Part shown: positions 23,198-40,315 of the stretch, in pieces | Numbering within the stretch: the first letter of the stretch is position 1 | Layout of the letters: each line of letters opens with the position of its first letter | Assembly (NCBI GenBank): GCA_013373445.1 | Contig: JABXHV010000042.1 | Span: forward strand, 1 to 40,315 | Length of the DNA: 40,315 nt | Direction of reading: 5' to 3' | Origin: Paracoccaceae bacterium | GTDB taxonomy: Bacteria > Pseudomonadota > Alphaproteobacteria > Rhizobiales > Stappiaceae | Notes under the pieces: model-generated | Told to the model about the DNA's origin: nothing | The model's input: only the letters and a program-made list of their open reading frames with translations | The model's database searches: none | Position numbers and translations under genes: made by a program

Positions 23198-23208
23198 ACA
23201 AGAGGCGG

Positions 23209-23919
23209 TCAGGCATCGTCATCGGGATTTCGATGCACACCCTTGCGCTCCATTTCGAGATAGAAGTCCTTGAGCGTTGTACCAGGCTCAGCGCGAAAAC
23301 GCTCTCCTGTCGCCGTAATGCTTTCGATGCGATCCACGCGGAACACACGAAAATCATTGCGCAGCTCGCACCACGCAATCAGCGTCCAGACCTTGCCCCA
23401 GAACCATAGCCCGAGGGGACGGATGTGCCGCTGTGAGGCTGCATTCGCCTTGTCGCAGTAGTTAATCTGAAGCTGCGAGGAAGCTTGCGCCGCAGCCTCC
23501 AGAGTGTCGATCCGCATACGAACGGCATCGGTCATCTCTGGTGCCAGAGAATGGATCTGCACATCCTTTGACGTGGTTTGAAGATCGTCCGGCAAGACGG
23601 CCTCAATCTTTGACAGAGCCTCTTCAGCAGAGCGCGCCATGTTCAGACCGCCCCAGGCACGGACCAGCCGGGCCCCGGCGATGAGGGCTGAAATCTCCTC
23701 ACGGGTGAACATCAGCGGCGGCAGGTCATAGCCAGACCGCATGAGATACCCGAGACCGGCGGCGCCATCGATCGGCACACCGGAAGCCTGCAGGTCGGCG
23801 ATGTCGCGGTAGATCGTGCGCTCGGACACCTCCAGCCATTCGGACAACTGGGCGGCACGAATGAGCCGACCACCTCGCAAATACTGAATGATCTGAAACA
23901 GGCGGTCGGCGCGGCGCAT
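23209..23919 (-). CDS. YafY/DeoR-type HTH regulator with WYL domain
   Basis: A 236-aa DNA-binding protein. An N-terminal HTH_11-type domain (LIRAAQLSEWLEVSERTIYRDIADLQ, about 18-43) is followed by the linker GLGYLMRSGYDLPPLMFTREE. The WYL ligand-sensing domain spans about 138-220 (RPLGLWFWGKVWTLIAWCELRNDFRVFRVDRI). WYL proteins are thought to sense nucleotides or other small effectors. It is the second gene of a two-gene unit after the VOC protein (26-base gap). A CCTTTGTT/AACAAAGG inverted repeat before that unit may be its own operator. Confidence 0.88.
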   Translation of the reverse strand: MRRADRLFQIIQYLRGGRLIRAAQLSEWLEVSERTIYRDIADLQASGVPIDGAAGLGYLMRSGYDLPPLMFTREEISALIAGARLVRAWGGLNMARSAEEALSKIEAVLPDDLQTTSKDVQIHSLAPEMTDAVRMRIDTLEAAAQASSQLQINYCDKANAASQRHIRPLGLWFWGKVWTLIAWCELRNDFRVFRVDRIESITATGERFRAEPGTTLKDFYLEMERKGVHRNPDDDA

Positions 23920-23945
23920 GGGAATGGTCCTGACAAGCAGTGTTG

Positions 23946-24311
23946 TTAACCGAAAAGGCTAATGGAGTTGCCGTCCGGGTCAAGGCAATAGGTGAAACGG
24001 CCAACCGGTATTTCGATCGGATCCATTACAACTTCGCCGCCCGCATCGACCAGTCGTTCCATCGTCTCTTCGAGCGTGTCGGGACAGTTCAGATGAACGG
24101 TTGGGCCTGTGCCCTTTGGTGCAGGTTTGCCCGGATACAGATGCCCGGACCGGCCGCCTTCCTTGACCGGGAACATGGCGATCGGGTTGGGACCCATATC
24201 CTGGACGGTCAGTTCTGTTTTGAAAACCGTGTTGTAAAAGGCGATGGACTTGTCGAAATCCGTGACCGGGATTTCAAACCAGACGATGAAGTTTTCAGGT
24301 GTAAATGGCAT
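23946..24311 (-). CDS. VOC-superfamily (glyoxalase/bleomycin-resistance fold) protein
   Basis: A 121-aa single-domain protein with the paired beta-alpha-beta-beta-beta modules of the VOC fold: WFEIPVTDFDKSIAFYNTVF at the front, VHLNCPDTLEETMERLVDAGG in the middle and FTYCLDPDGNSISLFG at the end. Candidate metal ligands are E10, H68-region and E/D near the C-terminus, but the terminal Glu common in glyoxalases is replaced (SISLFG), so an enzyme role is unsure. ATG 24311 follows AAGGAAG; a longer frame to 24350 is rejected because it starts before the SD. First gene of the unit with the WYL regulator. Confidence 0.85.
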   Translation of the reverse strand: MPFTPENFIVWFEIPVTDFDKSIAFYNTVFKTELTVQDMGPNPIAMFPVKEGGRSGHLYPGKPAPKGTGPTVHLNCPDTLEETMERLVDAGGEVVMDPIEIPVGRFTYCLDPDGNSISLFG

Positions 24312-24319
24312 TGCTGCTT

Positions 24320-24339: not shown

Positions 24340-24352
24340 TTCAATCGCACAG

Positions 24353-24380: not shown

Positions 24381-24428
24381 TTTGACCAATTTGATTTATC
24401 CCTCGGCAGTCTTTGCAACAGGGCTTTT

Positions 24429-26222: not shown

Positions 26223-26282
26223 TGTTTTCTTCTCCCTCAACGCGGAGCCACCCGTTCGGGTGGTTCCGGGACCTGAAACGGT

Positions 26283-27020: not shown

Positions 27021-30000
27021 GGCAGGTGACCTTTCGCTGAAAGCCGCGACCAGCCGTTGCCGACATCTGGCAAACGGCAAATGTGAGGGAGGAAACAGGG
27101 CCGCCGAAGTCGGCGATTTCGTCGCCGGACGCATAAAGGCACGATGGCTCCGAGCTGGTCAGGGTGCGCAGGACCGTGCTGCCGCCCGCATCCAGAATGT
27201 CGACTTCATAGGCCTCAAGTGCCTCGCCCAGCGGGACTTCGACCTGATCCCAGCTGTCGCCGCCGCGCCGGGTCTGGCGTACAAATGTGATGGATAGGCC
27301 CGATGGCAGGCGTTTTGCCCGCAGATGCACCGGTGCCAAAGGTTTGGCACCACGCGCTGTTGCCGTGTGTTCCAGATCGAGCACGATTTCCGCATCCAGC
27401 GCCGTTCCGGCTGGCACCAGCCGATAGGTCAGCTCCAGACCTATCCGATCACTGGTCAGCGGCACCAAAGGACAGGTCGTGCGGTCGAGTAGCACCACAT
27501 CTGCGCCGGTTTCTGCGCCTTGCAACATTTCGGGTTCTGTTCCGGCCTGCGCGCGCAGCAAGCCACTCAACTGGTAGGTCAAGGCGCCGGTGAGCTCTGC
27601 GTCCCTGAACTGGAGGATTTCATAGCCGCCGCCACTGGTGCGCACGGCAAGCGCGTTCTTGCCCGCCAGCACCGACGCTGCATCACGCGATTGCAGCACC
27701 CCGCCATAAAGCTCGACTTCCAGCGTGGTGGCCCGGTCCCATACACCCACAGGGCCCGGCCCTATTGGCGCCAGCAGCCGGCCGAGCGTTGCCGGGCGCT
27801 CAATGTTTTGAACCAGATCGTAGCCCGTCCCGGTGACGGACCGGAACAGGTTCAATCCGCCTGGCCAGGGCCGCGCAAATCCTGCAAGACGCAGACAATT
27901 GTCCGGATCAGCGTCTTCCAGCGGCGGCAGGTCCATCAAGATGCCGTGGGGTTTGCCTGCCTCGGCATTTCGAAAGGCAGTGGCCGGCGCACTCAAATAT
28001 GCCGTTGTGGGTGCAAGCGTGCTGCCAACGCGTGTTGCCTCAATCCGGCTGGCGTATGCGTCTTCCATACGTTCGATGCGCAACTTCAACGGCGGATCGA
28101 ATGTCTTGCCGGGCACCGCACCAAGGGCGAAAACATCCCCCGGCTGCAAATCAAGTCGCAAGGGTGACAGCGAGAACTCGGCCCGTTCGCGCTCGCCCCA
28201 CAGGCGCGCCAGACGCCGGTCTGCCGTCTGCTGCAATTCACTTGCGCCAATCACCGCCCCCAGATCGAGCGTTTCGATCTGACGACTGCCGCTGCCCAGA
28301 CGGCGTGATGCAACGCTCTGGCGCTGAAAGTCACGTGCGCTTTCTTCTGCGCTCATGCGCACCTCGGACGGCAACTCGCTCTCCTGACCTCTGGTGCGGG
28401 CGAGCAAAGGCGCCTCACCGTCCTCCTGAACAAGATCGTCAAAGGTCAAATTGGCAACGGCATCAACGGACTGGCGCTCGATGCGGATCTGGGCGCCCAG
28501 ATCGCAGGCCATGCCTCCAAAGGCGCGCAGCAGTGGTTCCATGACATCGCGCAGCGCCACAGGTCCGGGCACGGTAATGCCTTCCAACACACCGTCCAGA
28601 GATCCGACAGACACATCGGCCGGATCAATCCCGGCGTCCGCCACAAGCTGGCGCAAAAGCGTTGTCAGCGAGAGGGTTCCGGCGCGGCCATTGAGCCAGT
28701 GGCCAACCTGCCAGTTCACACCGTCCGCCCAGACCTCCAGGTAGTTGGGAAACGCCGGATAAGGCCGCGCATCCCAGGTCCAGAGATGGATCGCCGCCGG
28801 GTCAACCATTCGCCCGGTGTAACTGGCGGCTTGCGGATTGCTGCCCTCTTCAAAATCCGGATAGTACGGATCAAAACACGACAGCCAGGCTTCCAGTGCC
28901 CGGCGCTGGATCAGGTCATCACGTGCACCGGAGGAGAAATACGGCACCGCGCTTTCCGATGATTTCGGATCGACAAACAAATTGGGCTGATTGGCCGCCT
29001 TGTCGATGGCCGGGATGCCGAGTTCTGTAAATACAATCGGCTTTGACCCGGGCACCCAGCCGGTCGGCGATATTTCTTCAAGGCCTGCGGCGCGCTCGAC
29101 ATGCGGCTCGCTCCACCAGGAGCGGAGATCCTTGGACCGGTAGACCCATGGCTTTCCATAGGCCCCATCGGTGATCGGGGTGCGCACGGCGTTGTTGCGA
29201 TCCTCAGGGCTTGCGTAATACCAGTCGTGATACTCGCCGCCGGTGATCCCTTCCCTCAGCCCGGCAAGATCATAGGGGTCCTTATTGCCATCCGGGTCTC
29301 CTGCCCCGCGCTGATCTGCGATCGGCAGGTAGTTGTCGATGCCGATAAAGTCGATGTCCGGGGAGGCCCACAGCGGGTCGAGCGGGAAGCGCAGCTCGCC
29401 ATCGCCAGGCACATGCGATCCGTATTCCGACCAGTCAGCGGCATAAGACACTTGTGTGCCAGCCCCCAGAAGCGCCTTTACATCGGCCGCCAATGTCACC
29501 AGAGCCGAGACAAATGGATAGGTTCCCGGGGCCGTCTGCGCCTGCGTCAGAGCCTTCATTTCCGAGCCGATCAGGAACCGGGCAACACCGCCAGCTGCCT
29601 GCGCCAGGGAGGCAAAATGCAGGATAAACCGGCGGTAGGACCATTCTGTCGGACCGGGTGCACCGCTTCCAACGAAACTCGCGATATCGGAGGCTGTCCC
29701 GGCACTGATACGACCACGCCAGGGATAGGCTGGCTGCTCGTCTGCTCCGCCCGGATCAGGCAAACCATTGCCGCTCGGCACATCCATCAGGATAAAGGGA
29801 TAGAGCATGACTTTGAGGCCGCGCGCCTTCAGATCCTTGATCGCGGCAACGACGCTTGCATCAGAGGGCGTGCCGCCAAATGCCGGACGTCCGTCAACGC
29901 TGGAGACCTGACGCGCTGCGGACCGGCTCAGGCCCGCTGCGCTCCAGGTTGCACCGCTGGTGATCTTTTGCGGCACTTCCACCCGCGGGGAAATCTCGCA

Positions 30001-30864
30001 ATGTCCGGCACGCAGGTCATCGCCAAACCAGGACACGACCAGCGCGACACTTTCCAGATTGGGACACAAGTCCTGCAATTCATCCAGTGCGGCTGTCCAG
30101 TCTGACCGGGCGCTCACCACGTGTCGGTTGACCGCTTCTGTCACGCCGGGCAAAGGCTGGGCGGTGACGCTGGTGGGATGATAAACAAACTCGCCTGCGC
30201 CGGGGATAAGCGTCACGGCGCGAATGTTGTCCTCGAGCGGTTCAATGGACCGAATGACCTCGAAGGTCAGCTGCGGCAGACGATTGCCGAAGGGCTCCAG
30301 CGGCAAATGCTCAAAGACCACATAAGCGGTTCCGCGATAGGCCGGGGCATCGCCTTGCAGACCGGCAATCAGCGGATCGGCCAGCTGGGACGTGTCGCCC
30401 TTGTAGAACCGGATCGTGAGACTGGAGCGGTCGAGCAGCTTGCCATCAGCCCAGATGCGCCCGAAGCGGGTGATCGGGCCTTCGCACAAGGCGACAGCAA
30501 AGTTGCCATAATAGGAATAGCTGCGCACTGTCGTGCTGCTGCCCCCACCACCACCTTTGCCGCCCTGTTTTTCTTCGCTGACTTCTTCCTCAAAGCTGGT
30601 GGCCCAGATCACCTGCCCGGCCAGCCTGACCCGGCCATAGACCTTTGGCAGGCTGCCGCCTTCCTGCGAGGACTGGACAGTGACATCTGACAGACGTCCG
30701 GTCTCTATGGTTCTGGACGTCCCAAAGAGCGATTGATCGATGACAGATCCGGCGATTGCCCCGGCCGCCTTGCCCAGAACGCCGCCAAGGGCAGCATAGC
30801 CAGCCGATTTTCCGAGCGCTGCACCGAGCGCCTGGCCGGCGGTTGTGAGAACCAATGTCGCCAT
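27013..30864 (-). CDS. GTA megatron / host-specificity protein (g15), TIM-barrel
   Basis: A 1283-aa tail-tip protein, almost the size of RcGTA g15. The N-terminus (1-45) is hydrophobic and Ala/Gly-rich, as in RcGTA. A Lys/Gly loop (EEKQGGKGGGGGSS, 97-110) is followed by the GTA TIM-barrel domain (about 260-700). Candidate catalytic glutamates there are E435 (LIGSEMKAL) and E614 (VFTELGIPAIDK), suggesting a glycoside-hydrolase-type action on the cell envelope. The phage-tail_3-type baseplate domain lies at about 760-960 (QSVDAVANLTFDDLVQEDGE). It starts with TAATG overlap on the NlpC/P60 gene. In RcGTA this protein forms the baseplate tip and contributes to DNA delivery; that role here is by homology. 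Confidence 0.93.
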   Translation of the reverse strand: MATLVLTTAGQALGAALGKSAGYAALGGVLGKAAGAIAGSVIDQSLFGTSRTIETGRLSDVTVQSSQEGGSLPKVYGRVRLAGQVIWATSFEEEVSEEKQGGKGGGGGSSTTVRSYSYYGNFAVALCEGPITRFGRIWADGKLLDRSSLTIRFYKGDTSQLADPLIAGLQGDAPAYRGTAYVVFEHLPLEPFGNRLPQLTFEVIRSIEPLEDNIRAVTLIPGAGEFVYHPTSVTAQPLPGVTEAVNRHVVSARSDWTAALDELQDLCPNLESVALVVSWFGDDLRAGHCEISPRVEVPQKITSGATWSAAGLSRSAARQVSSVDGRPAFGGTPSDASVVAAIKDLKARGLKVMLYPFILMDVPSGNGLPDPGGADEQPAYPWRGRISAGTASDIASFVGSGAPGPTEWSYRRFILHFASLAQAAGGVARFLIGSEMKALTQAQTAPGTYPFVSALVTLAADVKALLGAGTQVSYAADWSEYGSHVPGDGELRFPLDPLWASPDIDFIGIDNYLPIADQRGAGDPDGNKDPYDLAGLREGITGGEYHDWYYASPEDRNNAVRTPITDGAYGKPWVYRSKDLRSWWSEPHVERAAGLEEISPTGWVPGSKPIVFTELGIPAIDKAANQPNLFVDPKSSESAVPYFSSGARDDLIQRRALEAWLSCFDPYYPDFEEGSNPQAASYTGRMVDPAAIHLWTWDARPYPAFPNYLEVWADGVNWQVGHWLNGRAGTLSLTTLLRQLVADAGIDPADVSVGSLDGVLEGITVPGPVALRDVMEPLLRAFGGMACDLGAQIRIERQSVDAVANLTFDDLVQEDGEAPLLARTRGQESELPSEVRMSAEESARDFQRQSVASRRLGSGSRQIETLDLGAVIGASELQQTADRRLARLWGERERAEFSLSPLRLDLQPGDVFALGAVPGKTFDPPLKLRIERMEDAYASRIEATRVGSTLAPTTAYLSAPATAFRNAEAGKPHGILMDLPPLEDADPDNCLRLAGFARPWPGGLNLFRSVTGTGYDLVQNIERPATLGRLLAPIGPGPVGVWDRATTLEVELYGGVLQSRDAASVLAGKNALAVRTSGGGYEILQFRDAELTGALTYQLSGLLRAQAGTEPEMLQGAETGADVVLLDRTTCPLVPLTSDRIGLELTYRLVPAGTALDAEIVLDLEHTATARGAKPLAPVHLRAKRLPSGLSITFVRQTRRGGDSWDQVEVPLGEALEAYEVDILDAGGSTVLRTLTSSEPSCLYASGDEIADFGGPVSSLTFAVCQMSATAGRGFQRKVTCHV

Positions 30865-31370
30865 TATGCGCGCGCCTTTCGGTTGCTGTCCGGGAGATCT
30901 GAGGGGAACGAAAACACATGCGCCAGACGCCGTTGCCAGGCGCTGGCGAAGGGGCTTTCGACAACACCGATGCGTTCATAGGCGTGGATGAGGCTGCTTG
31001 GTCCGGCGAGAATAGCCACGTGCCGGGCGGGCAAATGATCGCGCCAGCGAAACAGCAAGATGTCGGCAGGCTGGCGCTCCTCCAAAGGTTTTTCGACAAA
31101 CCACCGCCGTCCGGCCTCGGCCAGCTGGTCACAGGATTTGTCCAACGCACCATCGGCCTCATAGGGCGGCACGGCCTCTGGTTCACTGCCGTAAAGCGCA
31201 CGCCAGATGCCGCGCAAGAGGCCAAGGCAATCAGCGCCGACGCCTCGCAAGCTCGCCTGATGGCGATAGGGCGTGCCGATCCATGCCCGTGCTTCCCTCA
31301 GGACCGCCTCGTTGAGCGCGGTCTGCACGGGATCCTCGGTGCTCGCATCAACCAACACGGGGCGCACCAT
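30864..31370 (-). CDS. GTA NlpC/P60 peptidase (g14)
   Basis: A 168-aa NlpC/P60-fold cysteine peptidase. The catalytic set C48 (GVGADCLGLLRGIW), H117 (PARHVAIL) and H129 (SSLIHAYE) is complete. It fits the RcGTA g14 role of cutting peptide cross-links of peptidoglycan at the tail tip. ATG 31370 overlaps the DUF2163 gene by 23 bases. Its TAA overlaps the next ATG by one base. No signal peptide is present, as expected for a virion protein. Confidence 0.93.
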   Translation of the reverse strand: MVRPVLVDASTEDPVQTALNEAVLREARAWIGTPYRHQASLRGVGADCLGLLRGIWRALYGSEPEAVPPYEADGALDKSCDQLAEAGRRWFVEKPLEERQPADILLFRWRDHLPARHVAILAGPSSLIHAYERIGVVESPFASAWQRRLAHVFSFPSDLPDSNRKARA

Positions 31371-32292
31371 CGTTTTCGCCGGTGTTGCGCGCCGGATAAG
31401 ACAGAACGAAATCGGTTCCCGGCATGTGCGGAAAACCTTGAAAGTTCAAAGTGTTGGAGAACTTCCTTCGACAGGTCTCGAACCGCTTGTCGCAGCCTGC
31501 ATAAAGCGTCAGTTGCGTGCCGACCTCCAGCGTCTTCGGCGGGGCTTGCCACAGCCCGATACGGGCGGATGTTGCTGCTGGACCAGAGGCATCCAGCTCA
31601 TTGGCATGCCCTGCGATCTCGGTTTCAAAACCCTGCTGCGGACCATCGTCGACGCACAGGCGACCACCGGAAAACCATCCGCTGTCAAACCCGTCCAGAC
31701 CGCTCACCAGCAGCGTACCGGGAGCCTCGATCGCGGAGACAATCGCCTGGGCCTTGAATTGCGGATCCTCCAGATCCAGCTGGCAGCGCGTATCGCCAAG
31801 GTCGGCATCGCAATTTCTTGAAAACACCCGCCCCTGACGCACGTCGAGCAGATGGCCGAGACCGCGCAGCTCCGCCTGGAAGGCTTCTCCTGCGCGGCTG
31901 ACCTCGCCGATCCGGGCACGTCGCACGAGAAGGTATTGGCCGGGGTCCTGCCAGTTGACCAGATACATGGCCACCCTCGCCCCGTCCCAAAGCCCGGCTT
32001 CCAGATCATCATCGCTCAGGCCGGAGGCGCTGATGCTGGCCGGCTCAAGTTCTGTTGAGCTGAGCGCGCCGCGCACATCACCGCCGCCGGTGGCAAATCC
32101 GGTCGCACTGACAAGGCTGGAGACTTCCAGCGCATTCTCCGGCTGGCAGCTGACGCCCTCCACTTCAATTGATCTATCATGATCGGTGAAGCCGATCACC
32201 GCGCCATCCGCACGGGTCACAAGCCAGCATTTGGCCAAAGTGGTCACATGGCCCGCCAGATGATTGGCCAGACCCTCGGGGAGCTGTTTCAT
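31348..32292 (-). CDS. GTA hub protein (g13), DUF2163 / phage_BR0599
   Basis: A 314-aa tail hub protein. The N-terminal DUF2163 domain (about 1-160; VTRADGAVIGFTDHDRSIEV, then DDLEAGLWDGARVAMYLVNW) is followed by the phage_BR0599 C-terminal domain. Four cysteines are spaced as two pairs: SRNCDADLGDTRC and YAGCDKRFETC. Comparable cysteines hold an iron-sulfur cluster in the phage lambda gpL/RcGTA hub group, so the same is likely here. ATG 32292 is 39 bases after the DUF2460 stop. It overlaps the NlpC/P60 gene by 23 bases. Confidence 0.92.
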   Translation of the reverse strand: MKQLPEGLANHLAGHVTTLAKCWLVTRADGAVIGFTDHDRSIEVEGVSCQPENALEVSSLVSATGFATGGGDVRGALSSTELEPASISASGLSDDDLEAGLWDGARVAMYLVNWQDPGQYLLVRRARIGEVSRAGEAFQAELRGLGHLLDVRQGRVFSRNCDADLGDTRCQLDLEDPQFKAQAIVSAIEAPGTLLVSGLDGFDSGWFSGGRLCVDDGPQQGFETEIAGHANELDASGPAATSARIGLWQAPPKTLEVGTQLTLYAGCDKRFETCRRKFSNTLNFQGFPHMPGTDFVLSYPARNTGENDGAPRVG

Positions 32293-32331
32293 GGGATATA
32301 CGCCTGTCTTTGGTGGGTTCGCGCGGCGCGG

Positions 32332-32967
32332 CTACACCTTGATCTCGATGAGCGGGATGGAGGGAATATCCCCCGCCTCAAAGGCGGCAAGGCTGAGCTC
32401 CAGACGATCGGTGTCAAAGCGCACCGGCACGTCGAACAAGAAGCCCGCGGTCACTTCCGCGCCTTCGGTCGGTGGGGTGCCGAACACCAGTTCAGCGGTC
32501 TCTGTTTCCAGACTGACATCGGTGCCGAACACCTGGGGGATGCCGTCAACCGCGACCTTCAAGCTCGCCTCATCGGGCAACAAGATAGCGCGATCATAGG
32601 CGGTCTGGCCGCTGCCATAGGTTTTCTTCAAAGCGAAGGTCGTTGTCTCACCGTCGCCAATGGCAAGGCTTTGGTCCATCTGAGACGGCAAGGCGCGATC
32701 AGCGCGGGTGGAATGATCGAAGGGATCACGAAAGCGAAATCCGTAGAGCCTGCCACGCGCCTTTTCAAACAGCGCCACCACGGCCTTCAGGTCCTGAAGC
32801 GAACGAATGCCGCTGGCTGCATCATAACGTCTGCGGCTATCTGCCCAGCGAGCGTTGCGGCTTTCATGACCAGAGGCCAAGAGCACCACATCGGTCAGGC
32901 GTTCGGGACCGCCGAGTGTGCCGAAGGCAACGCTTCCGGGAAAGCGCTCATTCAAAAAGTTATCCAT
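32332..32967 (-). CDS. GTA distal tail protein (g12), DUF2460
   Basis: A 211-aa protein of the DUF2460 family, the size of RcGTA g12. It opens with the typical FLNERFPGSVAFGTLGGPER, has YGFRFRDPFDHS at about 74-85 and ends PSIPLIEIKV, all landmarks of the family. In RcGTA it forms the hexameric distal tail ring that joins the tube to the baseplate. ATG 32967 follows CAAGGAGAG. The gene starts 33 bases after the tape-measure stop. Confidence 0.93.
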   Translation of the reverse strand: MDNFLNERFPGSVAFGTLGGPERLTDVVLLASGHESRNARWADSRRRYDAASGIRSLQDLKAVVALFEKARGRLYGFRFRDPFDHSTRADRALPSQMDQSLAIGDGETTTFALKKTYGSGQTAYDRAILLPDEASLKVAVDGIPQVFGTDVSLETETAELVFGTPPTEGAEVTAGFLFDVPVRFDTDRLELSLAAFEAGDIPSIPLIEIKV

Positions 32968-33000
32968 CAGAGCTCTCCTTGAAGAGTTTACACGCGGGCT

Positions 33001-33642
33001 CTAGAGCCCGCGGCGACCGCGACTGACGGCGCGCGCGACCATCGCCGAGACCTGCGCCTCTGAACGGCGGAAGCTCTCCGCATCGCGGGTCGCCACATTG
33101 ATCTGGATTTTGGGTCCGCCGGCTCCGGTGCGTCTTCCTGCGCCCTGTCCGCCGCCTGCAACACCGAGGCGGCCGTCAGGACCACGTGCCAGCGGCAAAA
33201 TGGCTTCAGCTCCGGCTTCTCCTGCGACCCCGAGGCCTGATGTCCCGCCGGGTCCACTTGCTCCGGACAGGCCAAAGTAGGTTGGCGAGGCCACCACACC
33301 GCCCTTGGCAAAGGGCGTAACCGGTGCGTCCCTGGAGACAAGGTTCGACAGCCCGTTTCCCAAAGCGTTGCCGAGTGAACTGGCAGCTTTCCCGGCAAGC
33401 TGTTCCAGCGGGGCGAGCGAGGCGTTCAACAGCCTGGAGGACATCGACAGGGCAATTTGGCGAAACACGCCTTCCAGCGACTTGCCATCGACCAGCGCCG
33501 ACTTGAGGCCGGAGGACAGCGACGCAGAAAACTTCACCGCCGAGCGATTGACCTCCAGCATCCTGGCTGAAAAAGCTTCCAGATCCTCCACCGGCACCTT
33601 GATCTGTGTGTCGGCGCCCGGCCGTGTCTCTCGGTCCACCAT
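33001..33642 (-). CDS. GTA tape measure protein (g11)
   Basis: A 213-aa protein that sets tail length. The N-terminal half is a long amphipathic helix (DLEAFSARMLEVNRSAVKFS). The middle has the hydrophobic LAPLEQLAGKAASSLGNALG, and the C-terminal part has TPFAKGGVVASPTYFGL and GEAGAEAILPL, which are signature segments of phage tape-measure C-termini. The length is near RcGTA g11 and implies a short tail of about 50 nm if the usual scaling holds. ATG 33642 follows AGGAGGG. Confidence 0.9.
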   Translation of the reverse strand: MVDRETRPGADTQIKVPVEDLEAFSARMLEVNRSAVKFSASLSSGLKSALVDGKSLEGVFRQIALSMSSRLLNASLAPLEQLAGKAASSLGNALGNGLSNLVSRDAPVTPFAKGGVVASPTYFGLSGASGPGGTSGLGVAGEAGAEAILPLARGPDGRLGVAGGGQGAGRRTGAGGPKIQINVATRDAESFRRSEAQVSAMVARAVSRGRRGL

Positions 33643-33659
33643 TGTGCCCTCCTGATGCG

Positions 33660-33827
33660 TTAAAGCTTGTGTGGTTGATCCGGATAGGCCCGGATCAAGT
33701 CAGCCAGCGCAGCTGCGCCGAAAGAGTGACGCGCGGGCTGAAGGTTCAGTGCCCAGGCAATCTCGATAGGTGTTGCCGCCCAATAATCAGCCGGTCGCCA
33801 GCCGAGTTTCTGGCAGACAGCCTCCAT
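33660..33827 (-). CDS. GTA small tail assembly chaperone (g10.1, DUF2376-like)
   Basis: A 55-aa gene that is easily missed. Its ATG shares one base with the stop of gp10 (TGATG). The protein begins MEAVCQKLGWRPADYWAATP, continues IEIAWALNLQPARHSF and ends in ADLIRAYPDQPHKL, the pattern of the tiny DUF2376 protein found between g10 and g11 in RcGTA. It likely pairs with gp10 as a tail assembly chaperone during tube growth on the tape measure. It ends 17 bases before the gp11 start. No other frame in this interval gives a plausible product. Confidence 0.85.
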   Translation of the reverse strand: MEAVCQKLGWRPADYWAATPIEIAWALNLQPARHSFGAAALADLIRAYPDQPHKL

Positions 33828-34216
33828 CAGGTCTTGCCAGGGAAAGGGACGGCCGGGGTTTCCCCAACCTCCGCCAGGTCTTCCGATGCGTCTTCGTCTG
33901 CTGCCGTGTCAGGTCCAAAGGTCACGGCCAAGAGGTCAGAGCAGATGGCGGCGAAACCAGCCGCCCCGCCGACCGACGTCATGAGCCCCACCTGGGCATC
34001 GCTGACCTCATGACCTGCCCCGCGCAATCCTGCACCGATCACCTTGATCAGGTCACCGGCGGACAGGCGCGCGGACGCGAACCGGTCGACCAGGCCTTGC
34101 AGGTCGGAGCACTTCAATCCAGCCTCCAGTTCGGCCAGAGCCCCCAGGGTCAAAACGAGCGTCCATTGACGTCCATCGAGGTGGGCGGTGATCTCACCGC
34201 GCAGGCGATTGGCCAT
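33827..34216 (-). CDS. GTA tail assembly chaperone (g10)
   Basis: A 129-aa protein of the GTA_gp10 (phage TAC) family. Family features are MANRLRGEITAHLDGRQWTL, LGALAELEAGL and ALRGAGHEV-type segments (here GAGLRGAGHEVSDAQVGLM), with an acidic C-terminal tail (DTAADEDASEDLAEVGE). It overlaps the 55-aa chaperone gene by one base. ATG 34216 follows AGGAGA. Its upstream neighbour is not the major tail protein, as in RcGTA, but the antisense DUF2235 gene, with which it is head to head over a 159-base gap, so it may need its own promoter. Confidence 0.88.
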   Translation of the reverse strand: MANRLRGEITAHLDGRQWTLVLTLGALAELEAGLKCSDLQGLVDRFASARLSAGDLIKVIGAGLRGAGHEVSDAQVGLMTSVGGAAGFAAICSDLLAVTFGPDTAADEDASEDLAEVGETPAVPFPGKT

Positions 34217-34244
34217 TGCTGTCTCCTGAAATGATCATTCAACG

Positions 34245-34261
34245 TGCCAGAACCTCTGGCA
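34245..34261. promoter_or_regulatory. Inverted repeat covering the -35 of the DUF2235 gene
   Basis: TGCCAGA (34245-34251) and TCTGGCA (34255-34261) are perfect arms with a 3-nt centre. The right arm contains the proposed -35 hexamer (34256-34261). A repressor bound here would block the promoter. As RNA in the gp10 direction it would be a small hairpin without a T-run. Confidence 0.45.
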
Positions 34262-34284
34262 TTGTCGGTGTTTTTATGTATACT
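34256..34284 (+). promoter_or_regulatory. Candidate sigma-70 promoter of the DUF2235 gene
   Basis: CTGGCA (34256-34261, 4 of 6) and TATACT (34279-34284, 5 of 6) are exactly 17 bases apart in the AT-rich stretch ahead of the gene. Transcription would start near 34291 and give an 85-base leader. No equally good leftward promoter for gp10 is visible in the 34217-34375 gap. Confidence 0.55.
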
Positions 34285-34375
34285 TAAAGTTGCGTTATCG
34301 GTGCACACGCCCTCAGTCTTACGAAAGACACCCCGCAGCATGTTGCGATCGCTGCGAGACTTTTACGGAGGCCAC

Positions 34376-35386
34376 ATGAAACGACTGGTGATTTGCGCTG
34401 ACGGAACCTGGAACGCACCTGAATCGGAAGGCGCGAAGGACAACTCTTCGACCAATGTCCTGAAGATGCTGCGCGCGATCCTGCCGAAGGACCAGAACGA
34501 CGTCGAGCAAATCCGGTATTATTGCCAGGGCGTGGGCACCGGTAACGCGGTCGATACCCTGACGGGCGGAATGTTCGGTGCCGGTCTCAGCAATCATGTG
34601 CTGGAGTGCTATCGCTTTCTGGCCAACAACTATTGTGTCGGCGACGAAATCTATATCTTCGGCTTTTCCAGAGGGGCCTTCACGGCCCGCAGTCTGGGCG
34701 GCCTGATTGGTGCTCTCGGACTGGTGACACCCTCGCAGCTCGGCAAACTGCCCGATGGCTGGGCCTACTATCGCCTGCCACCTGAAAAGCGCGCCACGAT
34801 CGAAGGTCAAGCGCTACTCAAGTATCTGGACCAGCGCGTAACCAGCGTGCCCATTCGCTGCATCGGTGTTTGGGATACGGTCGGTTCGCTGGGTGTTCCC
34901 GGCCGCTTCTTCAATATGTACCGGGCCAGTGAGTTCGAGTTCCACGACTGCAAGCTGGGCGCCAACGTCAAGGTGGCCCTCCACGCGCTGGCGATTGATG
35001 AACAACGCAAGGATTTTTCACCCACTGAATGGGATGAAAATGCCGTGCGGGCTGGCCAGACGATGGAGCAGGTCTGGTTTCCCGGAGTGCATGCCAATGT
35101 CGGCGGCGGTTATCCCGATCAGGGCCTGTCCGATGTGTCCCTCACATGGATGATCGAGCGGGTCAGCACTCACACAAAACTGGAGTTCTCAAAGGACTTC
35201 ATTGAAACGCACGTTGTGCCTGATCCGACCTCAACGCTGTATGACTCCCGGCGCGGCATCATCTGGAACCTGCGTCCGAAATATGTGCGCCCGATCAAAC
35301 AGGGCGCCAGCATTCACCAATCGGTCCACAAACGCTGCGCAGCGCCGTTGCAGCCAGCCTACAAGCCGGAAAACCTGCCCGCCTGA
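34376..35386 (+). CDS. DUF2235 alpha/beta-hydrolase (Tle1-like domain), inserted in the GTA cluster
   Basis: A 336-aa cytoplasmic protein; ATG 34376 follows GGAGG by 5 bases, and the in-frame extension to 34244 has no SD. The DUF2235 fold is clear: MKRLVICADGTWN at the start, nucleophile elbow GFSRGAFTAR with S98, candidate acid D167 (GVWDTVGSLG) and H239 (VWFPGVHANVGGGYPD), giving a full Ser-Asp-His triad. The domain is shared with Tle1-type phospholipase effectors, but no VgrG, PAAR or immunity gene is nearby and no membrane segment exists, so an effector role is not supported. It is antisense to the whole GTA run, between the major tail protein and gp10 genes, 60 bases tail to tail with the former. 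It behaves like a moron gene with its own promoter. Confidence 0.85.
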   Translation: MKRLVICADGTWNAPESEGAKDNSSTNVLKMLRAILPKDQNDVEQIRYYCQGVGTGNAVDTLTGGMFGAGLSNHVLECYRFLANNYCVGDEIYIFGFSRGAFTARSLGGLIGALGLVTPSQLGKLPDGWAYYRLPPEKRATIEGQALLKYLDQRVTSVPIRCIGVWDTVGSLGVPGRFFNMYRASEFEFHDCKLGANVKVALHALAIDEQRKDFSPTEWDENAVRAGQTMEQVWFPGVHANVGGGYPDQGLSDVSLTWMIERVSTHTKLEFSKDFIETHVVPDPTSTLYDSRRGIIWNLRPKYVRPIKQGASIHQSVHKRCAAPLQPAYKPENLPA

Positions 35387-35446
35387 CAGTTTGAGCAGCA
35401 TAGCGGCGTGACACATCGCGCTGTGACACTGCGCTTTGGTGTGGCT

Positions 35447-35863
35447 CTATGCATCTGCGGTAAAGCTGAGTTCTCCGGCAGATTCCAGGGCCATCTCGAA
35501 GCTGATTTCCCCGTCATGGCGTCCGCCGTATTCCAGCGCGGTGACCTGAAACGGTCCCTCAAGAACACCAAAGTCCGGGATGATGACCTGCCAGGGACAG
35601 ATCTGCCCCTGAAAGAAGACCTCGCGCACCTTGGCATCGCTGTCCTGATCGCGAAACAGGCCGGAGCCTGCAAGACTGGCGGTGCGCGTTCCGGCCTGTG
35701 CCAGCAGCTCGCGCCAGCGTCCTGCGCTGTCAGAACTGGTGATATCAACCGATGAGGCGTTGAGCGCCAGACGCCGGGTTCGCAGTCCGGCAACCGTGAC
35801 GAAGCTGCCGGTCTCCAGCGGGTCGAGTTTCAAAAGAAGATCACGGCCATTTTGCGCTGCCAT
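35447..35863 (-). CDS. GTA major tail protein (g9)
   Basis: A 138-aa tail-tube subunit of the TP901-1 major tail protein family: MAAQNGRDLLLKLD, then TVAGLRTRRLALNASSVDIT and SSDSAGRWRELLAQAG, all standard family landmarks. It forms stacked hexameric rings around the tape measure. ATG 35863 follows CAAGGAGAG. Its 3' end faces the antisense DUF2235 gene across 60 bases that contain an imperfect direct repeat (GTGACAC at 35408 and 35423) but no terminator-like hairpin. Confidence 0.93.
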   Translation of the reverse strand: MAAQNGRDLLLKLDPLETGSFVTVAGLRTRRLALNASSVDITSSDSAGRWRELLAQAGTRTASLAGSGLFRDQDSDAKVREVFFQGQICPWQVIIPDFGVLEGPFQVTALEYGGRHDGEISFEMALESAGELSFTADA

Positions 35864-35917
35864 ATCGACTCTCCTTGTTGGGATGTGAGAATTTGAACGT
35901 CATTGCGTGGCGGTGCC

Positions 35918-36340
35918 TCAGGCGGCTGTCATCGCCGGTTCGGTGACGGCACGCAGGGACAGCTCTCCCTTGAAGCTGCGTCCATCGCGCAGCAGCCGGG
36001 TTGTCACGCTGGTGATTTGAAGCCCGACCAGATGATGGTCCTGAAGGGAAAACCCCGGCTGCATCAGCAGGTCAGTGATCCTGGCCGCAAGGATATGGGT
36101 TTCATCACTTGAGGGCTGACGGGAATGAACGACCAGTTTCAGATCATGCAGCAGCCCGGCCTCTTCGCCTTCCAGCAAGGGACGGGATCCGGCACTCTCA
36201 AGCGACACGTTTGGAAAGCGTGCGTTGCGCGGAGGGTGATCATAGACACCGCCCTCCCCGAGCAAATCCATCAGGGTGCTGTCTGCCTTCAGCCTCTCGA
36301 AGATCGCTGACCGCAGGGCCAGGGTCGCGGGTGTGGTCAT
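35918..36340 (-). CDS. GTA tail completion/terminator protein (g8), DUF3168
   Basis: A 140-aa DUF3168 protein. Family landmarks are LRSAIFERLKADSTLMDLLG, the VYDHPP segment, and LLHDLKLVVHSR followed by ILAARITDLLMQPGF. In RcGTA it closes the tail tube at the head-proximal end. ATG 36340 overlaps the stop of g7 as ATGA. The gap to g9 is 54 bases. Confidence 0.92.
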   Translation of the reverse strand: MTTPATLALRSAIFERLKADSTLMDLLGEGGVYDHPPRNARFPNVSLESAGSRPLLEGEEAGLLHDLKLVVHSRQPSSDETHILAARITDLLMQPGFSLQDHHLVGLQITSVTTRLLRDGRSFKGELSLRAVTEPAMTAA

Positions 36341-36657
36341 AGACCTTCCTCCTCAAGCATGCAGACAATTTCGGCGTTGCGGGTGTCGATCGGCGAGACA
36401 GCGAGGACCCGAAAGCGCCGGCTGCCGGAGGTGATCATCCAGCCGCTGGTAACATCATCGCGGTAGCGCAGGCGCAGCCGGTGGCTGGCATAACCTTCCG
36501 GGCGACCACCGACAAAGCGGCTGCCGCGGGACAAGGTGACAAGCTCGGCAAAGACCTCTCCAACGGGAGCAAAGGAAATTTCTGCCGTGCCGCCGGTGGT
36601 CTCGGTACGCTCGGGCCGGAGCAAGAACACCGGGCTTCTATAGCGTCCGGCGCTCAT
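36337..36657 (-). CDS. GTA head-tail adaptor (g7)
   Basis: A 106-aa head-tail joining protein (phage_H_T_join family). It reads MSAGRYRSPVFLLRPERTET, then VFAELVTLSRGSRFVGG and YRDDVTSGWMITSGSRRFRVLAVSPIDTRNAEI, typical of the family. ATG 36657 overlaps the g6 stop as ATGA; a longer frame to 36753 lies inside g6 and is rejected. Its own stop overlaps g8 as ATGA. Confidence 0.92.
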   Translation of the reverse strand: MSAGRYRSPVFLLRPERTETTGGTAEISFAPVGEVFAELVTLSRGSRFVGGRPEGYASHRLRLRYRDDVTSGWMITSGSRRFRVLAVSPIDTRNAEIVCMLEEEGL

Positions 36658-37223
36658 AGCAATGGCACTCTGTGAGTGGACAAGAGCCTGTCCACGCCAA
36701 AGGGAACCGGTTCCAGAGCGTCTTCTGCGACGGCCTCGCGGTGCTCGAACCAATGGGCTGCCAGCATGCGAATGCTTTGCCGCAGGTTTTCCGGCACATC
36801 GCTCTCGGTAGGTCCGTAGCCAGCGGTGAAGTCGACCTCGATGCCATTGAGGTTCTGCAAGGGCAGTCCGGCACCTGGGCGAACCCGCAGCCTTGCCGGG
36901 GAGCGTGCCTTGTCGAGCTGATAGTCATCGGAGCTCAACAGATGCCGGTCGCCGTCCAGATCATAGACCGCCACCTCACTGACGCTGAGGATCGGCGCCA
37001 CCGGCAGGACGATCACCCGGCCGAAGGGCCAGTTTTCCAGATACAAACGCCAGTTCTGACTGATCAGCGCCCGACGGGTTTCCCGCTCCACATGCTGGCG
37101 TGCCGCCTTGACCAGATCGCCGAGCAGCTCCTCTTCCTGTGTGCCGGAGACACGCAGATAGGCCCGCATGTCAGCGACACTGACCGGCTCGATTGTTGGC
37201 GGGTCGATGAGTACAGAAGTCAT
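36654..37223 (-). CDS. GTA head-tail connector (g6)
   Basis: A 189-aa protein of the phage gp6/phiE125 gp8 connector family: VSVADMRAYLRVSGTQEEEL, ARQHVERETRRALISQNWRL and NGIEVDFTAGYGPTESDVPE are family landmarks. It docks on the portal and carries the adaptor. ATG 37223 has GGAG 8 bases upstream, while ATG 37241 has no SD. A strong terminator lies upstream, between the capsid gene and this gene, so it must rely on readthrough or another promoter. It overlaps g7 by 4 bases. Confidence 0.9.
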   Translation of the reverse strand: MTSVLIDPPTIEPVSVADMRAYLRVSGTQEEELLGDLVKAARQHVERETRRALISQNWRLYLENWPFGRVIVLPVAPILSVSEVAVYDLDGDRHLLSSDDYQLDKARSPARLRVRPGAGLPLQNLNGIEVDFTAGYGPTESDVPENLRQSIRMLAAHWFEHREAVAEDALEPVPFGVDRLLSTHRVPLL

Positions 37224-37273
37224 CTCCGGTTCTCCAGACATCTTTTTGAAAAGGCGGGGCTTTGCTTGCGCAC

Positions 37274-37304
37274 AAAAAAGGCCGGGCTCATCACAAGCCC
37301 GGCC
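37274..37304 (-). terminator. Rho-independent terminator between capsid and connector genes
   Basis: Read leftward, GGCCGGGCT (37304-37296) and AGCCCGGCC (37288-37280) form a perfect 9-bp GC-rich stem with a 7-nt loop, followed directly by TTTTTT (37279-37274). It lies 52 bases past the capsid stop and 50 bases before the g6 start, inside the GTA operon. This is the best terminator shape in the window. Confidence 0.85.
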
Positions 37305-37356
37305 AGTTGGGGGAGGAGATCGTGACGCCGGGCGTCAGCTCGGCAGCCGATGGTGA

Positions 37357-38760
37357 TCAGCCCGGCGTTGCGGTGACAGCGGTCGCGAACTGCAACAGCT
37401 TGATCGCGTCATAGTCCTGGACGCCGCCGCCAACACGTTTGGTGGTGTAGAACAGGACATTCGGCTTGGAGGTGTATGGATCACGCAGGATGCGCACGCC
37501 CAGGCGGTCGACCACCAGATAGCCGCGCTTGAAATCACCAAACGCAATGGCTGCGCCGTTGGAGCTCATGTCCGGCATGTCCTCGATTTCCGTCACCGGG
37601 AAATTCATCAGGCTGGCGTTTGCCCCCGCCATGGCTGGTGGCTGCCAGAGATAGTTGCCATCGGCATCCTTCAGCTTGCGCAGCGCCGCCTGGGTCTTGC
37701 GGTTCATCACGAAGCGGGCGTTCTGGCGGTAACCGCTCTTCAGCGAATAGACCAGATCGAGCAAGATGTCGGAGGGATGAGACGACGGCAATGCAGACGC
37801 GGCACCGGTCAACAGGGTGCCCAGCTTGCCCCACTCCCAACTGCTCTCCGCCACGCGCTGTTCTTTCAGAAAGCCCTTTGGCTTGGACACACCATCGCCG
37901 TTGACAAAGGCTGCGCCTTCCTGCTCGGCAAAGGCGGTTTCAACTTCCTCTGCCAACCAGGCGTCAATGTCGACAACCGCATCATCGAGCAAGCTCGCGG
38001 TGGCTGCCGGCATGGCGTAGAGCTCCATGGTCGGGAAATTAAGCTCGGCCAACTGGGGAGCGCCGGTCTCCGGCCGCGCAGCGCTCTCGCCAACCCAGCC
38101 CGCATTCGGGCCCTGGGTGGAGAAGGGTTTCTTGTAGAGCGATGACGAAACCTGACGCACGGCGGCGATGGCACGGATGGGAGACGCCTCGGACAGGCGG
38201 CGCATGATGCCTGCCTCGGTTTCCTCAGGCACCAGATAGCCCCCCTCTGTGTCCGCTGCGATGTTCAGGCCCTTGCGTTCCAAAGGACGCAGCGTCTGTT
38301 CGCGGCCGGTGCGCATGTAGCTTTCAAAGGCAGCCTTGTGCTCCATCGTCTGGACCGAGCGGACCGGGCCGCTGGTCAGTGCGCGCTGCGGGCGGCGGCT
38401 CTTAAGGCTCATGTCGTCGAGGCGGCGCTGGGTCATATCAAGCGCTGCATCCAGACGGTCGAGCTTTTCCAGCGTCAACACATCGGCAGATCCGCGCTCC
38501 TCGATCTCCGACAGACGGGCATCATTGACCTGCCGATAGGCCTCAAAGGCACGAAAGAACTCCTCAAAGGAGCGCGCCACGGTGTCCGCGTCGCCGCTGT
38601 CCTCCTCGGGCATGGCGTGGGCCGGGCTGGATGGCAGACCGGCCTTGGTTTCAAGGCCCGATTTGGTTTCAAGGCCCATTTGGGTTTCAAGGCCTGGTTT
38701 GATCTTCAGGCCTGGCGGGTATCCGGCACCCAGTGTTTCACTTGAACTGGCAGTCATCAT
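37357..38760 (-). CDS. GTA HK97-fold major capsid protein (g5)
   Basis: A 467-aa capsid precursor. The N-terminal 130 residues form the delta/scaffold region with hexapeptide repeats (about 15-40) and a coiled coil (EIEERGSADVLTLEKLDRLD). The mature HK97 shell follows: KGLNIAADTEGGYLVPEE, E-loop with YKKPFSTQGPNAGWVGE, and FVMNRKTQAALRKLKDADG to GDFKRGYLVVDRLGVRILRD. The neighbouring protease presumably removes the N-terminal region. ATG 38760 follows AAGGAG; ATG 38757 is adjacent and also possible. It is followed by a strong terminator, which would favour high capsid messages. Confidence 0.95.
   Translation of the reverse strand: MMTASSSETLGAGYPPGLKIKPGLETQMGLETKSGLETKAGLPSSPAHAMPEEDSGDADTVARSFEEFFRAFEAYRQVNDARLSEIEERGSADVLTLEKLDRLDAALDMTQRRLDDMSLKSRRPQRALTSGPVRSVQTMEHKAAFESYMRTGREQTLRPLERKGLNIAADTEGGYLVPEETEAGIMRRLSEASPIRAIAAVRQVSSSLYKKPFSTQGPNAGWVGESAARPETGAPQLAELNFPTMELYAMPAATASLLDDAVVDIDAWLAEEVETAFAEQEGAAFVNGDGVSKPKGFLKEQRVAESSWEWGKLGTLLTGAASALPSSHPSDILLDLVYSLKSGYRQNARFVMNRKTQAALRKLKDADGNYLWQPPAMAGANASLMNFPVTEIEDMPDMSSNGAAIAFGDFKRGYLVVDRLGVRILRDPYTSKPNVLFYTTKRVGGGVQDYDAIKLLQFATAVTATPG
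38641..38712. repeat. Four 18-bp tandem repeats in the capsid gene
   Basis: Four units of 18 bp (38641-38658, 38659-38676, 38677-38694, 38695-38712) share the core TCAAGGCC or TTCAGGCC. Three share GGTTTCAAGGCC exactly. They encode GL(E/K)(T/I)(K/Q)x hexapeptides in the capsid N-terminal region. The period is a multiple of three, so copy number can change without frameshift. Confidence 0.9.
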
Positions 38761-38806
38761 GGTCTCCTTGCAAGAGAGCTTCGGGAAGAAAAGAGGCTTG
38801 AAACGT

Positions 38807-39286
38807 CTAGACAAGACGCACCCGCGCCTTGTCCATTTGCGGAAAGGTGACCAGAGACACCTCCCAAAGATCGAGTTCGATCAAGGTGCGGGCACCGCGC
38901 CCGCCCGCCTTCAACGCCTTGAGCGCCTGAAAGCCGATGGACAGTCCGGACAACGCGCCGCTGGCAATCAGATGAGCTGCCTCGCGCGACTGGGCCACAT
39001 CGGGCAGCAGTTGCCCGATCACCCTGAGGCCATGCCGGTCTTCGGACATATGGGTCCAGACACCAACGGGGCGCGCCGGATCGTGCTGCCACAACATGGC
39101 AATGCCGTTTGCCCCGCGCTGGCGCAGCGAACGCCTGAAGGCCCCCGGCCGCACGACATCGCCGGACGCATCGGGCTGGTCGAACAGGCTGGCATAGCCG
39201 GTGATGGTGATCCTGCCTTGCTGGCGCGAGCGCTGCGTGACTGGCCGGGCAATCCGGCGCTTTGCGGAACCGCTCAGCGCTCTCAC
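38807..39286 (-). CDS. GTA HK97-type prohead protease (g4)
   Basis: A 159-aa HK97-family (U35/S78) serine protease that trims the capsid delta domain. Candidate catalytic residues are H68 (MLWQHDPARPVG), S116 (ALSGLSIGFQA) and E142 (DLWEVSLVTFP), in the usual order. The start is GTG 39286, overlapping the stop of the Pro-rich gene upstream as GTGA. The gene ends 46 bases before the capsid ATG. Confidence 0.93.
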   Translation of the reverse strand: MRALSGSAKRRIARPVTQRSRQQGRITITGYASLFDQPDASGDVVRPGAFRRSLRQRGANGIAMLWQHDPARPVGVWTHMSEDRHGLRVIGQLLPDVAQSREAAHLIASGALSGLSIGFQALKALKAGGRGARTLIELDLWEVSLVTFPQMDKARVRLV

Positions 39287-39612
39287 ACAGAACCAGCCCC
39301 CGGCCCCTGCCGACCGGTTGTTTGATAGGTGTCGTGATGGCGCGCGGCATGTTGCCCACCTTGCGGCATCACCTTGCGACCGATTTGCGGACAGGCCAGA
39401 TCACACAGGAGGTCGGCAAATTCGCGAAACGTCGTCTCGCCTTCCTGCGGCCTGGCAGGCTGGATACGCGGCGCGCGGAACGGATTGAACGGCAGATAGC
39501 CCAGCATCGGTCCTGTCGGCGCAGGTCTCGGTGGAAGGGCTGGCGGGGCCGCTGGAGCGGGGGAAGCGCGCAGGCTCAATGCCTCGCGCACGCCAATGGG
39601 TTGCCTCGGCAT
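39283..39612 (-). CDS. Proline-rich small protein of the GTA head module
   Basis: I do not recognise a family. It is a 109-aa soluble protein: a short N-terminal helix (MPRQPIGVREALSLRA), a Pro/Ala-rich linker (about 17-33), a middle segment MLGYLPFNPFRAPRIQP, a motif FREFADLLCDLACPQIG and a His/Gln-rich tail. ATG 39612 follows AAGGAGAG, and its TGA overlaps the protease GTG as GTGA, so it is translated with the head genes. It has no counterpart that I know in RcGTA at this place, where g3.5 is followed directly by the protease. It may be a cargo, scaffold or minor head protein. Confidence 0.6.
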   Translation of the reverse strand: MPRQPIGVREALSLRASPAPAAPPALPPRPAPTGPMLGYLPFNPFRAPRIQPARPQEGETTFREFADLLCDLACPQIGRKVMPQGGQHAARHHDTYQTTGRQGPGAGSV

Positions 39613-39672
39613 GGCAGCTCTCCTTGTCATGTGATGTGTCAGATGGTGCTGCAGAACGGGCTGCAAGCGGTG

Positions 39673-39972
39673 TCAGGGACGGCGACTTGGCGCCTTGCGC
39701 TCACGGTCCGCAGCAGCAGATTGATGAGTCTTTTGAATCGCTTGTGACCCACCGTTGAAGTTTTGCTCGGAGTCGCTCAGATAATGATTCAACACGCGGT
39801 TCAAACGGGCGACCTGTGAGACGAAATCCGAGAAGCGCCGGTTAGACAGCGACAGCTCGCGGATGAGCCGCATGGCCAGAAGACTGGCGGCGGCAGCCCA
39901 CAGGAACAGAGCCATATGGGCCAGATCGCCGCGAACAATCACCGACTGCAGAATGTCGTCGGCGACAATCAT
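39673..39972 (-). CDS. Small GTA head-formation protein (g3.5, rcc01685-like)
   Basis: A 99-aa protein with one hydrophobic helix (about 18-38, LAHMALFLWAAAASLLAMRL), then a helical segment (FSDFVSQVARLNRVLNHYL) and a polar tail. Its place between portal and protease and its size match the small RcGTA head-formation protein encoded there. Assignment is by position; I cannot align it. ATG 39972 overlaps the portal stop as ATGA. Confidence 0.65.
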   Translation of the reverse strand: MIVADDILQSVIVRGDLAHMALFLWAAAASLLAMRLIRELSLSNRRFSDFVSQVARLNRVLNHYLSDSEQNFNGGSQAIQKTHQSAAADRERKAPSRRP

Positions 39973-40315
39973 GTGACCGGCCCCCCGGCATCGCCTTGCG
40001 CCTGCGGAACAAACTGTTCCTCGCGCGCACCATAGCCGACAGCAATGCGCTTTTCGTCGTCATCGAGAAAGTCCGCCGAGACGACGCGCCGCCACAAGGC
40101 CTCGCGTTCACCGGCCAGCGCCTCGATGGCATCAAGGTCAGGCCTGAGCGTCAGCTCTTCGCCGAACGCCGGTCCGAGCCAGGCCGCCAATGCGCCTGCA
40201 GTGCGTGAGACAAGCGGCAGCACCCCTTGTCGCCAAAAGGCTCGGCTGGCCTCCTGATAATTGGCATAGGTCGTGTCACCGGGAATGCCGAGCAGCATCG
40301 GCGGCACGCCAAAGG
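39969..40315 (-). CDS. GTA portal protein (g3), 3' part
   Basis: The frame runs off the right edge. About 115 C-terminal residues are visible: FGVPPMLLGIPGDTTYANYQ, then EASRAFWRQGVLPLVSRTAGALAAWL and DEKRIAVGYGAREE, diagnostic of HK97-type phage and GTA portal proteins. The portal is the dodecameric channel at the head vertex through which DNA is packed and leaves. Its stop overlaps the next ATG by 4 bases. The terminase genes should lie upstream, outside the window. Confidence 0.93.
   Translation of the reverse strand, partial: FGVPPMLLGIPGDTTYANYQEASRAFWRQGVLPLVSRTAGALAAWLGPAFGEELTLRPDLDAIEALAGEREALWRRVVSADFLDDDEKRIAVGYGAREEQFVPQAQGDAGGPVT

Follow-up and report, generated by a model that had tools for sequence, protein, structure and literature searches.

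A conserved terminator hairpin between the capsid and connector genes of a GTA cluster as the likely 3' end of a nested anti-Shine-Dalgarno sRNA

As characterized in part of PMC12559287, sRNAs of the alphaR8 family consist of a weak hairpin, a single-stranded UUUCCUCCCU and a Rho-independent terminator. One alphaR8 sRNA, SisA, provides the published precedent for a seed that pairs with Shine-Dalgarno regions and blocks translation. SorX of Rhodobacter sphaeroides, which is Hfq-dependent, is cut from an mRNA 3' end (PMC9438474, in part). Accounts of GTA control have so far invoked activators, repressors and, more recently, antitermination, the last exemplified by Caulobacter, in which GafZ lets some RNAP pass a terminator that lies in the GTA cluster after its first gene (PMC11150451, in part). 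No sRNA in a GTA cluster is reported in the titles and abstract openings of the listed open-licence papers on GTAs and on Roseibium sRNAs.

The window, i.e. the whole stretch of 40,315 nt that was analysed, lies on a contig of a 3.64-Mb genome and contains a GTA cluster in which the major capsid gene (g5) and the head-tail connector gene (g6) are separated by a gap of ~115 nt, measured up to the earliest possible g6 start. The features of this gap and the two genes that border it are as follows.

37357..38757, minus strand: GTA major capsid gene g5, start at 38757 or 38760, upstream of the element (PF05065, E 2.4e-90; ORF)
37323..37337, minus strand: 5' hairpin TGACGC-CCG-GCGTCA (fold; a hairpin at the same place in most relatives, by eye)
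37305..37319, minus strand: unpaired anti-Shine-Dalgarno seed TCTCCTCCCCCAACT (CCTCCCC in all Roseibium GTA gaps; unpaired in the fold)
37280..37304, minus strand: intrinsic-terminator hairpin with G-C stem, forming the proposed sRNA's 3' end (scan, fold and strict scan; stem covariation in relatives)
37274..37279, minus strand: T6 tract (sequence, terminator scan)
36654..37241, minus strand: head-tail connector gene g6, start at 37241 or 37223, downstream of the element (PF05135, E 3.1e-09; ORF)

The original prediction placed a perfect 9-bp GC stem followed by T6 between g5 and g6, and the sequence bears this out: GGCCGGGCT-TGTGATG-AGCCCGGCC and then TTTTTT occupy 37304-37274 on the minus strand, beginning 52 nt past the capsid stop codon, with nine Watson-Crick pairs (eight G-C and one T-A) that can be extended to 10-11 with U-G. 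The earlier gene calls were also correct (the capsid as PF05065 and a gp6-like connector as PF05135), and the antisense gene noted in the cluster is real and Tle1-like (PF09994). This phospholipase-domain gene lies antisense from 34379 to 35383 (plus strand), with g9 and g10 on either side of it, and its only counterpart in the loci compared is in the GTA contig of G038 (L046:2971-3969, 61.6% identity).

The 41-nt stretch with the hairpin folds at -21.6 kcal/mol (z -4.5), a stability equalled by none of 200 shuffles, and the hairpin ranks first of the 27 terminator-like sites in 20316-40315 (17.4 expected). Under strict criteria (at least nine Watson-Crick pairs, at least seven of them G-C, a loop of 3-8 and at least six T within the next seven bases) it is the sole site on either strand of the whole window, with none in 40 dinucleotide shuffles; the fold z score and the strict scan together rule out a chance origin. 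The fold of a wider 118-nt stretch is unremarkable (z -1.7, equalled by 15 of 200 shuffles).

CCUCCC is an anti-Shine-Dalgarno (anti-SD) sequence. A stretch of this type, UCUCCUCCCCCAACU, lies unpaired in the window directly 5' of the terminator hairpin, the order from 5' to 3' being a small hairpin, the anti-SD stretch, the G-C terminator hairpin and a U tract; the predicted fold comprises the hairpin, 18 unpaired bases that include the motif, and the terminator. The usual form in the genus is UUCCUCCCC-N-ACU, and the window copy is diverged and lacks both the 19-nt core and the upstream block described below. Hfq is encoded in the same genome. A whole-genome search with TCCTCCCCN{1,4}ACT returns one match, the window element itself (reversed control, three), which rules out the motif as a common feature of this genome's terminators; the looser CCTCCCN{1,5}ACT returns 45 (reversed control, 82). 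Among 38 own-genome loci examined (eight of the 35 RF00519 matches and 30 of the 45 pattern matches), CCTCCC followed by a terminator occurs only in mmgR, in the GTA element and in a further site that is SorX-like by eye (L069, C198:87233-87309).

The comparison within the genus of the window, taken to be Roseibium, covered 45 genomes, 17 with a GTA-type capsid gene and 28 without it (27 with no capsid match at E 1e-30, and G041 with a 46% match only). CCTCCCC is present in all 17 GTA gaps (0.66 expected from shuffles), where it immediately precedes a G-C hairpin followed by a T tract. The check named in the original prediction, namely whether related clusters retain a hairpin here although the sequence has changed, is thus positive in 17/17. 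Nine of these hairpins with their tracts were recovered by the strict scan and eight by folds read by eye, the stems of the latter having a mismatch or a bulge. The remainder of the gap differs widely among the Roseibium GTAs, except for a block common to six species. When 17 distinct rows (L023, L175 and mmgR among them) are aligned by fitting to the model, six of the seven terminator-stem pairs are changed on both sides and 95.7% of cells are paired; none of 500 shuffles scored as high.

One genome, G007, has its GTA split at the RNA element, with the capsid gene and g6 ~58 kb apart (L006, L333:11619-12671 and L302, read at their ends only). The capsid-side junction is adjoined by a phage-type integrase gene (PF00589). 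Each of the two junctions carries a 12-nt repeat from the element (CTCCCCAGACTG), and a new hairpin with its own T tract is found on the capsid side; the hairpin of G007, one of the eight by-eye cases, was seemingly supplied by the inserted island. Islands with such integrases habitually enter RNA genes and restore their 3' end. We take the split as an independent sign that the element belongs to an RNA gene.

Beyond the family, the capsid gene is present in 137 of 199 Hyphomicrobiales genomes, from which 80 loci were hand-picked (one per genome, outside Stappiaceae, with longer contigs preferred). Fourteen of these have g6 more than 800 nt away, leaving 66 gaps, and two more have gaps of less than 40 nt, leaving 64. 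CCTCCC occurs in 42 of the 64 (12.2 expected, with a maximum of 20 in 200 shuffles) and is absent from 22, and TCCTCCC occurs in 16 (2.7 expected). Other tandem gaps of the same loci, taken from a crude longest-ORF gene call and less G+C-rich than the capsid-g6 gaps (0.60 versus 0.67), contain CCTCCC in 13 of 271 cases (20 expected). The other-strand form, GGGAGG, is at chance (7 versus 5.6 expected). CCCTCC, the motif read in reverse, is somewhat enriched (22 versus 12.6 expected). An artefact of base composition is ruled out by the dinucleotide shuffles together with the same-locus control gaps. At 25 of 55 order sites no base of the motif is paired, compared with 19% in shuffled gaps and one of 39 control sites; some order-wide sites lie inside stems. 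Two layouts recur, with the motif either 5' of the stem or in its loop. A separate named set, consisting of 80 named loci minus 14 without a usable gap, seven Stappiaceae records and one too-short gap, has some genomes in common with the order set; its top 6-mers are TCCTCC and CCTCCC, the latter in 25 of 58 gaps (7.2 expected).

The Roseibium model R1, which has just seven pairs and was used as a detector, gave 12 matches at E up to 2 in the 80 order loci, six of them on the coding strand between g5 and g6. In other genera of Stappiaceae just 5 of the 41 gaps contain CCTCCC, and the Roseibium layout was seen only in L023. At the class level 41 of 190 genomes matched, and 29 loci (L265-L293, two of them from the window's own order) were viewed once; by inspection without statistics these often have a different spacing or gene order and show no clear pattern. 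The 14 loci in which g6 starts more than 0.8 kb past the capsid gene are L187, L188, L197, L221, L223, L234, L235, L240, L242, L244, L247, L251, L257 and L263; in L197 and L188 an R1 match lies immediately before g6.

A model built from 16 Roseibium GTA elements, with L006 omitted because its terminator is replaced, also gave strong matches in GTA-less genomes. The exact 19-nt core, GAACGATGAGGGTCGTTCC, is found in 32 of the 45 Roseibium genomes with one exact copy in each, and the reversed pattern in none; the core is present in 26 of the 28 GTA-less genomes (absent from G004 and G043) and in six of the 17 GTA-bearing ones. Downstream of the core, 30 of the 32 carry CCTCCCC, the exceptions being G027, a stand-alone copy with the changed seed CCACCCC, and G006, with CCTCCCT. 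A search of the 26 GTA-less loci, with ~5 kb on each side of the element (1.9 kb on one side in G033), found no match to 12 GTA proteins of the window, and the positive-control locus was found. Orthologues of the genes that flank the GTA in five GTA-bearing genomes and in the window lie on both sides in 20 of the 26 loci and on one side in six. On the right flank, the markers in the window are the following.

23245..24311, minus strand: glyoxalase-like gene (23949-24311) and WYL regulator gene (23245-23919), with orthologues beside the stand-alone element in GTA-less Roseibium

Since these loci have GTA flanks and no GTA genes, the cluster is gone on both sides of the element and the RNA unit remains. 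The loss of the GTA may have been one event, which would be compatible with the trees of both flank genes: GTA-less rows are grouped with the GTA-bearing G023 in the WYL tree (98/98), and GTA and GTA-less rows are mixed, with weak support, in the glyoxalase tree. Because a single loss is possible, the 26 GTA-less genomes are not independent.

Within the GTA-less loci, identity is 98.8% over 34 columns of the core, as opposed to 49% over the first 100 upstream columns. In eight of them the closest left-hand gene that the loci share lies on the other strand, facing away, and the terminator is therefore not serving that gene. Most stand-alone copies and six GTA-borne ones share a conserved upstream block, TCAC...CTCACAC...TTGCCTTGCAA, which in five of the six begins shortly past the capsid stop; it may be the RNA's own promoter, and inspection of the block by eye for a known promoter type gave nothing convincing. 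In the stand-alone set, the 5' hairpin comprises seven consensus pairs, all invariant, and shows no covariation because its letters hardly vary; its consensus fold differs from the single-sequence folds.

Several further sites were noted. G035 has a degenerate copy of the 19-nt core (1-2 mismatches) at C61:176853-176871, ~780 nt from the exact copy, and second degenerate sites (1-2 mismatches) in G003, G005, G006, G021, G037 and G039 possibly reflect chance. Away from GTA genes, UCCUCCCC-ACU with a terminator is found at L308:2933 (minus), L309:4994 (plus) and L311:5114 (minus), from G032, G018 and G079 respectively, and the family may thus contain several such RNAs.

On the strength of these patterns in sequence and gene order, we consider it likely that the element is a trans-acting, probably Hfq-dependent anti-SD sRNA nested between g5 and g6, and that the 'terminator' is its 3' end. 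Such an RNA would end at the intrinsic terminator, Hfq would hold it at the U tail, and the CCUCCC seed would pair with the Shine-Dalgarno regions of target mRNAs, blocking their translation. The gap of the window is too short for the upstream block, so the RNA here would probably be cut from, or form the end of, the capsid mRNA, making the window copy probably a product of the capsid 3'UTR; as this copy has neither the 19-nt core nor the block, its status as an sRNA derives from place and layout. The downstream GTA genes of the window would then need readthrough or antitermination, either of which is plausible by the precedent of Caulobacter GafZ. That the GTA-less species have lost the cluster and kept just the RNA unit makes it probable that the RNA has a function independent of the GTA.

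According to the original prediction, the hairpin is a terminator placed right after the capsid gene, at which partial termination would set the amount of capsid mRNA above that of connector mRNA. The hairpin is real and its position is conserved, but the anti-SD stretch and the GTA-less copies indicate more than a plain capsid terminator. A plain intrinsic terminator with an incidental anti-SD stretch would account for the textbook hairpin with T6, for its being kept in place in every Roseibium GTA and for the terminator-like sites of the order gaps of 40-400 nt (11 of 54, with 0.8 expected, versus 6 of 221 controls); however, strong hairpins are present in 35 of the same 54 gaps (3.8 expected, versus 9 of 221 controls with 9.5 expected), the CCTCCC stretch is among the most conserved parts of the element while the letters of the stem vary, and 26 genomes that have no GTA-type capsid gene contain the unit. 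The stoichiometry idea leaves both the conserved stretch and this presence unexplained, and we regard the plain-terminator reading as unlikely.

A second alternative is that the stretch acts in cis: by pairing with the g6 (or g5) Shine-Dalgarno site it would tune translation of that gene, and the hairpin would shield the capsid mRNA at its 3' end. The position between g5 and g6 on the same strand and the often unpaired seed would suit such an element, but the motif of the window is still unpaired when the whole gap is folded together with the g6 start, and the unit persists at loci that no longer have g5 and g6, making a cis-acting role very unlikely. Finally, a site of GTA transcription control, i.e. 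a terminator passed only by a GafA/GafZ-like antiterminator in the manner of the Caulobacter terGTA, is highly improbable, for although GafZ lets some RNAP past terGTA and also past the E. coli rrnB T1 terminator (PMC11150451, in part), terGTA consists of three 150-bp repeats after the first gene, unlike the hairpin of the window, and the presence of the unit without a GTA would go unexplained; such control and an sRNA can nevertheless coexist.

If the nested anti-SD sRNA is real, it would add an RNA layer to GTA control and a possible link between particle production and host translation. Its presence in GTA-less genomes constitutes a natural experiment that separates the function of the RNA from particle production, and this function is testable in species without a GTA at that site. 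A more general and tentative suggestion, which we hold as a possibility, is that in GTAs of Hyphomicrobiales an anti-SD sRNA at the head-tail junction ties capsid transcription to the repression of host mRNAs during particle making, and that Roseibium kept the RNA after losing all of the surrounding GTA genes. The element also serves as a caution that 'terminators' in phage-like operons can be the ends of conserved RNA genes.

In comparison with known families, the window element scores below the Rfam cut-offs for both SorX (RF02784; 26.0 bits, cut-off 46.6) and MmgR/suhB (RF00519; 22.8 bits, cut-off 41), and symR, an unrelated RNA, scores 22.5 bits on it. Among other loci scanned, suhB gave sub-threshold matches in one of 14 (L023, 25.5 bits) and in one of six (the stand-alone L304, 27.2 bits). 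The curated scores rule out filing the element as a member of alphaR8 or SorX; sub-threshold matches of this kind are weak evidence of kinship, and the case for kinship to alphaR8 is one of layout, not of score. A separate, true mmgR is located elsewhere in the same genome (71.3 bits).

The likeness to alphaR8 (MmgR/suhB, RF00519; SisA-D of Caulobacter) consists of the hairpin, the UUUCCUCCCU-type single-stranded anti-SD stretch and the Rho-independent terminator (PMC12559287, in part); in the window fold a hairpin lies 5' of the core region and the terminator 3' of it. In most stand-alone copies, as in the mmgR of the window's genome (L066), AGACU comes after the seed. In place of the 10-nt core UUUCCUCCCU, the window has UCUCCUCCCC, most stand-alone copies have GUUCCUCCCC and G006 has GUUCCUCCCU; the core region is unpaired in the folds of the window and L008 and partly paired in those of L296 and L294. 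The element differs from alphaR8 in its sub-threshold score, in a seed that usually ends in CCCC rather than CCCU and in its location inside a GTA cluster.

SorX, the top-scoring Rfam match of the window element, likewise has a CCUCCC segment between a 5' hairpin and a G-C terminator, and the location of the element on the coding strand between a stop codon and an intrinsic terminator is that of a 3'UTR-derived sRNA of the SorX type; apart from the score, the difference is that the SorX mRNA encodes a regulator and not a capsid protein. The gaps with the motif in a loop can be compared with sRNAs of Rhizobiales, namely SmelA075 and SmelA099, which we take to be the 'cuckoo' sRNAs, and alpha-r14/NfeR1. 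These have anti-SD sequences in hairpin loops and diverged stems (PMC3927594 and PMC7143759, both in part), as do several of the order GTA gaps, but they contain three or four hairpins, compared with mostly one (by eye) in the loop-layout gaps. In 17 loci scanned, no Rfam match reached a curated cut-off.

The Caulobacter terGTA resembles the element in being a terminator inside a GTA operon (PMC11150451, in part) and differs in that its repeats follow gtaT and do not form a single hairpin after the capsid gene; the window has one terminator hairpin after g5 in its short gap rather than a series of long, GC-rich direct repeats downstream of the first GTA gene, which lies outside the window. Finally, DicF of E. 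coli, from a defective lambdoid prophage, is also an sRNA inside a phage-derived operon with a 3' end formed by Rho-independent termination, and is processed from the operon mRNA (PMC9438474, in part). The bacteria, the seed and the targets are different, and the element, compared with DicF, exists in six GTA-borne and in stand-alone copies that have a conserved upstream block.
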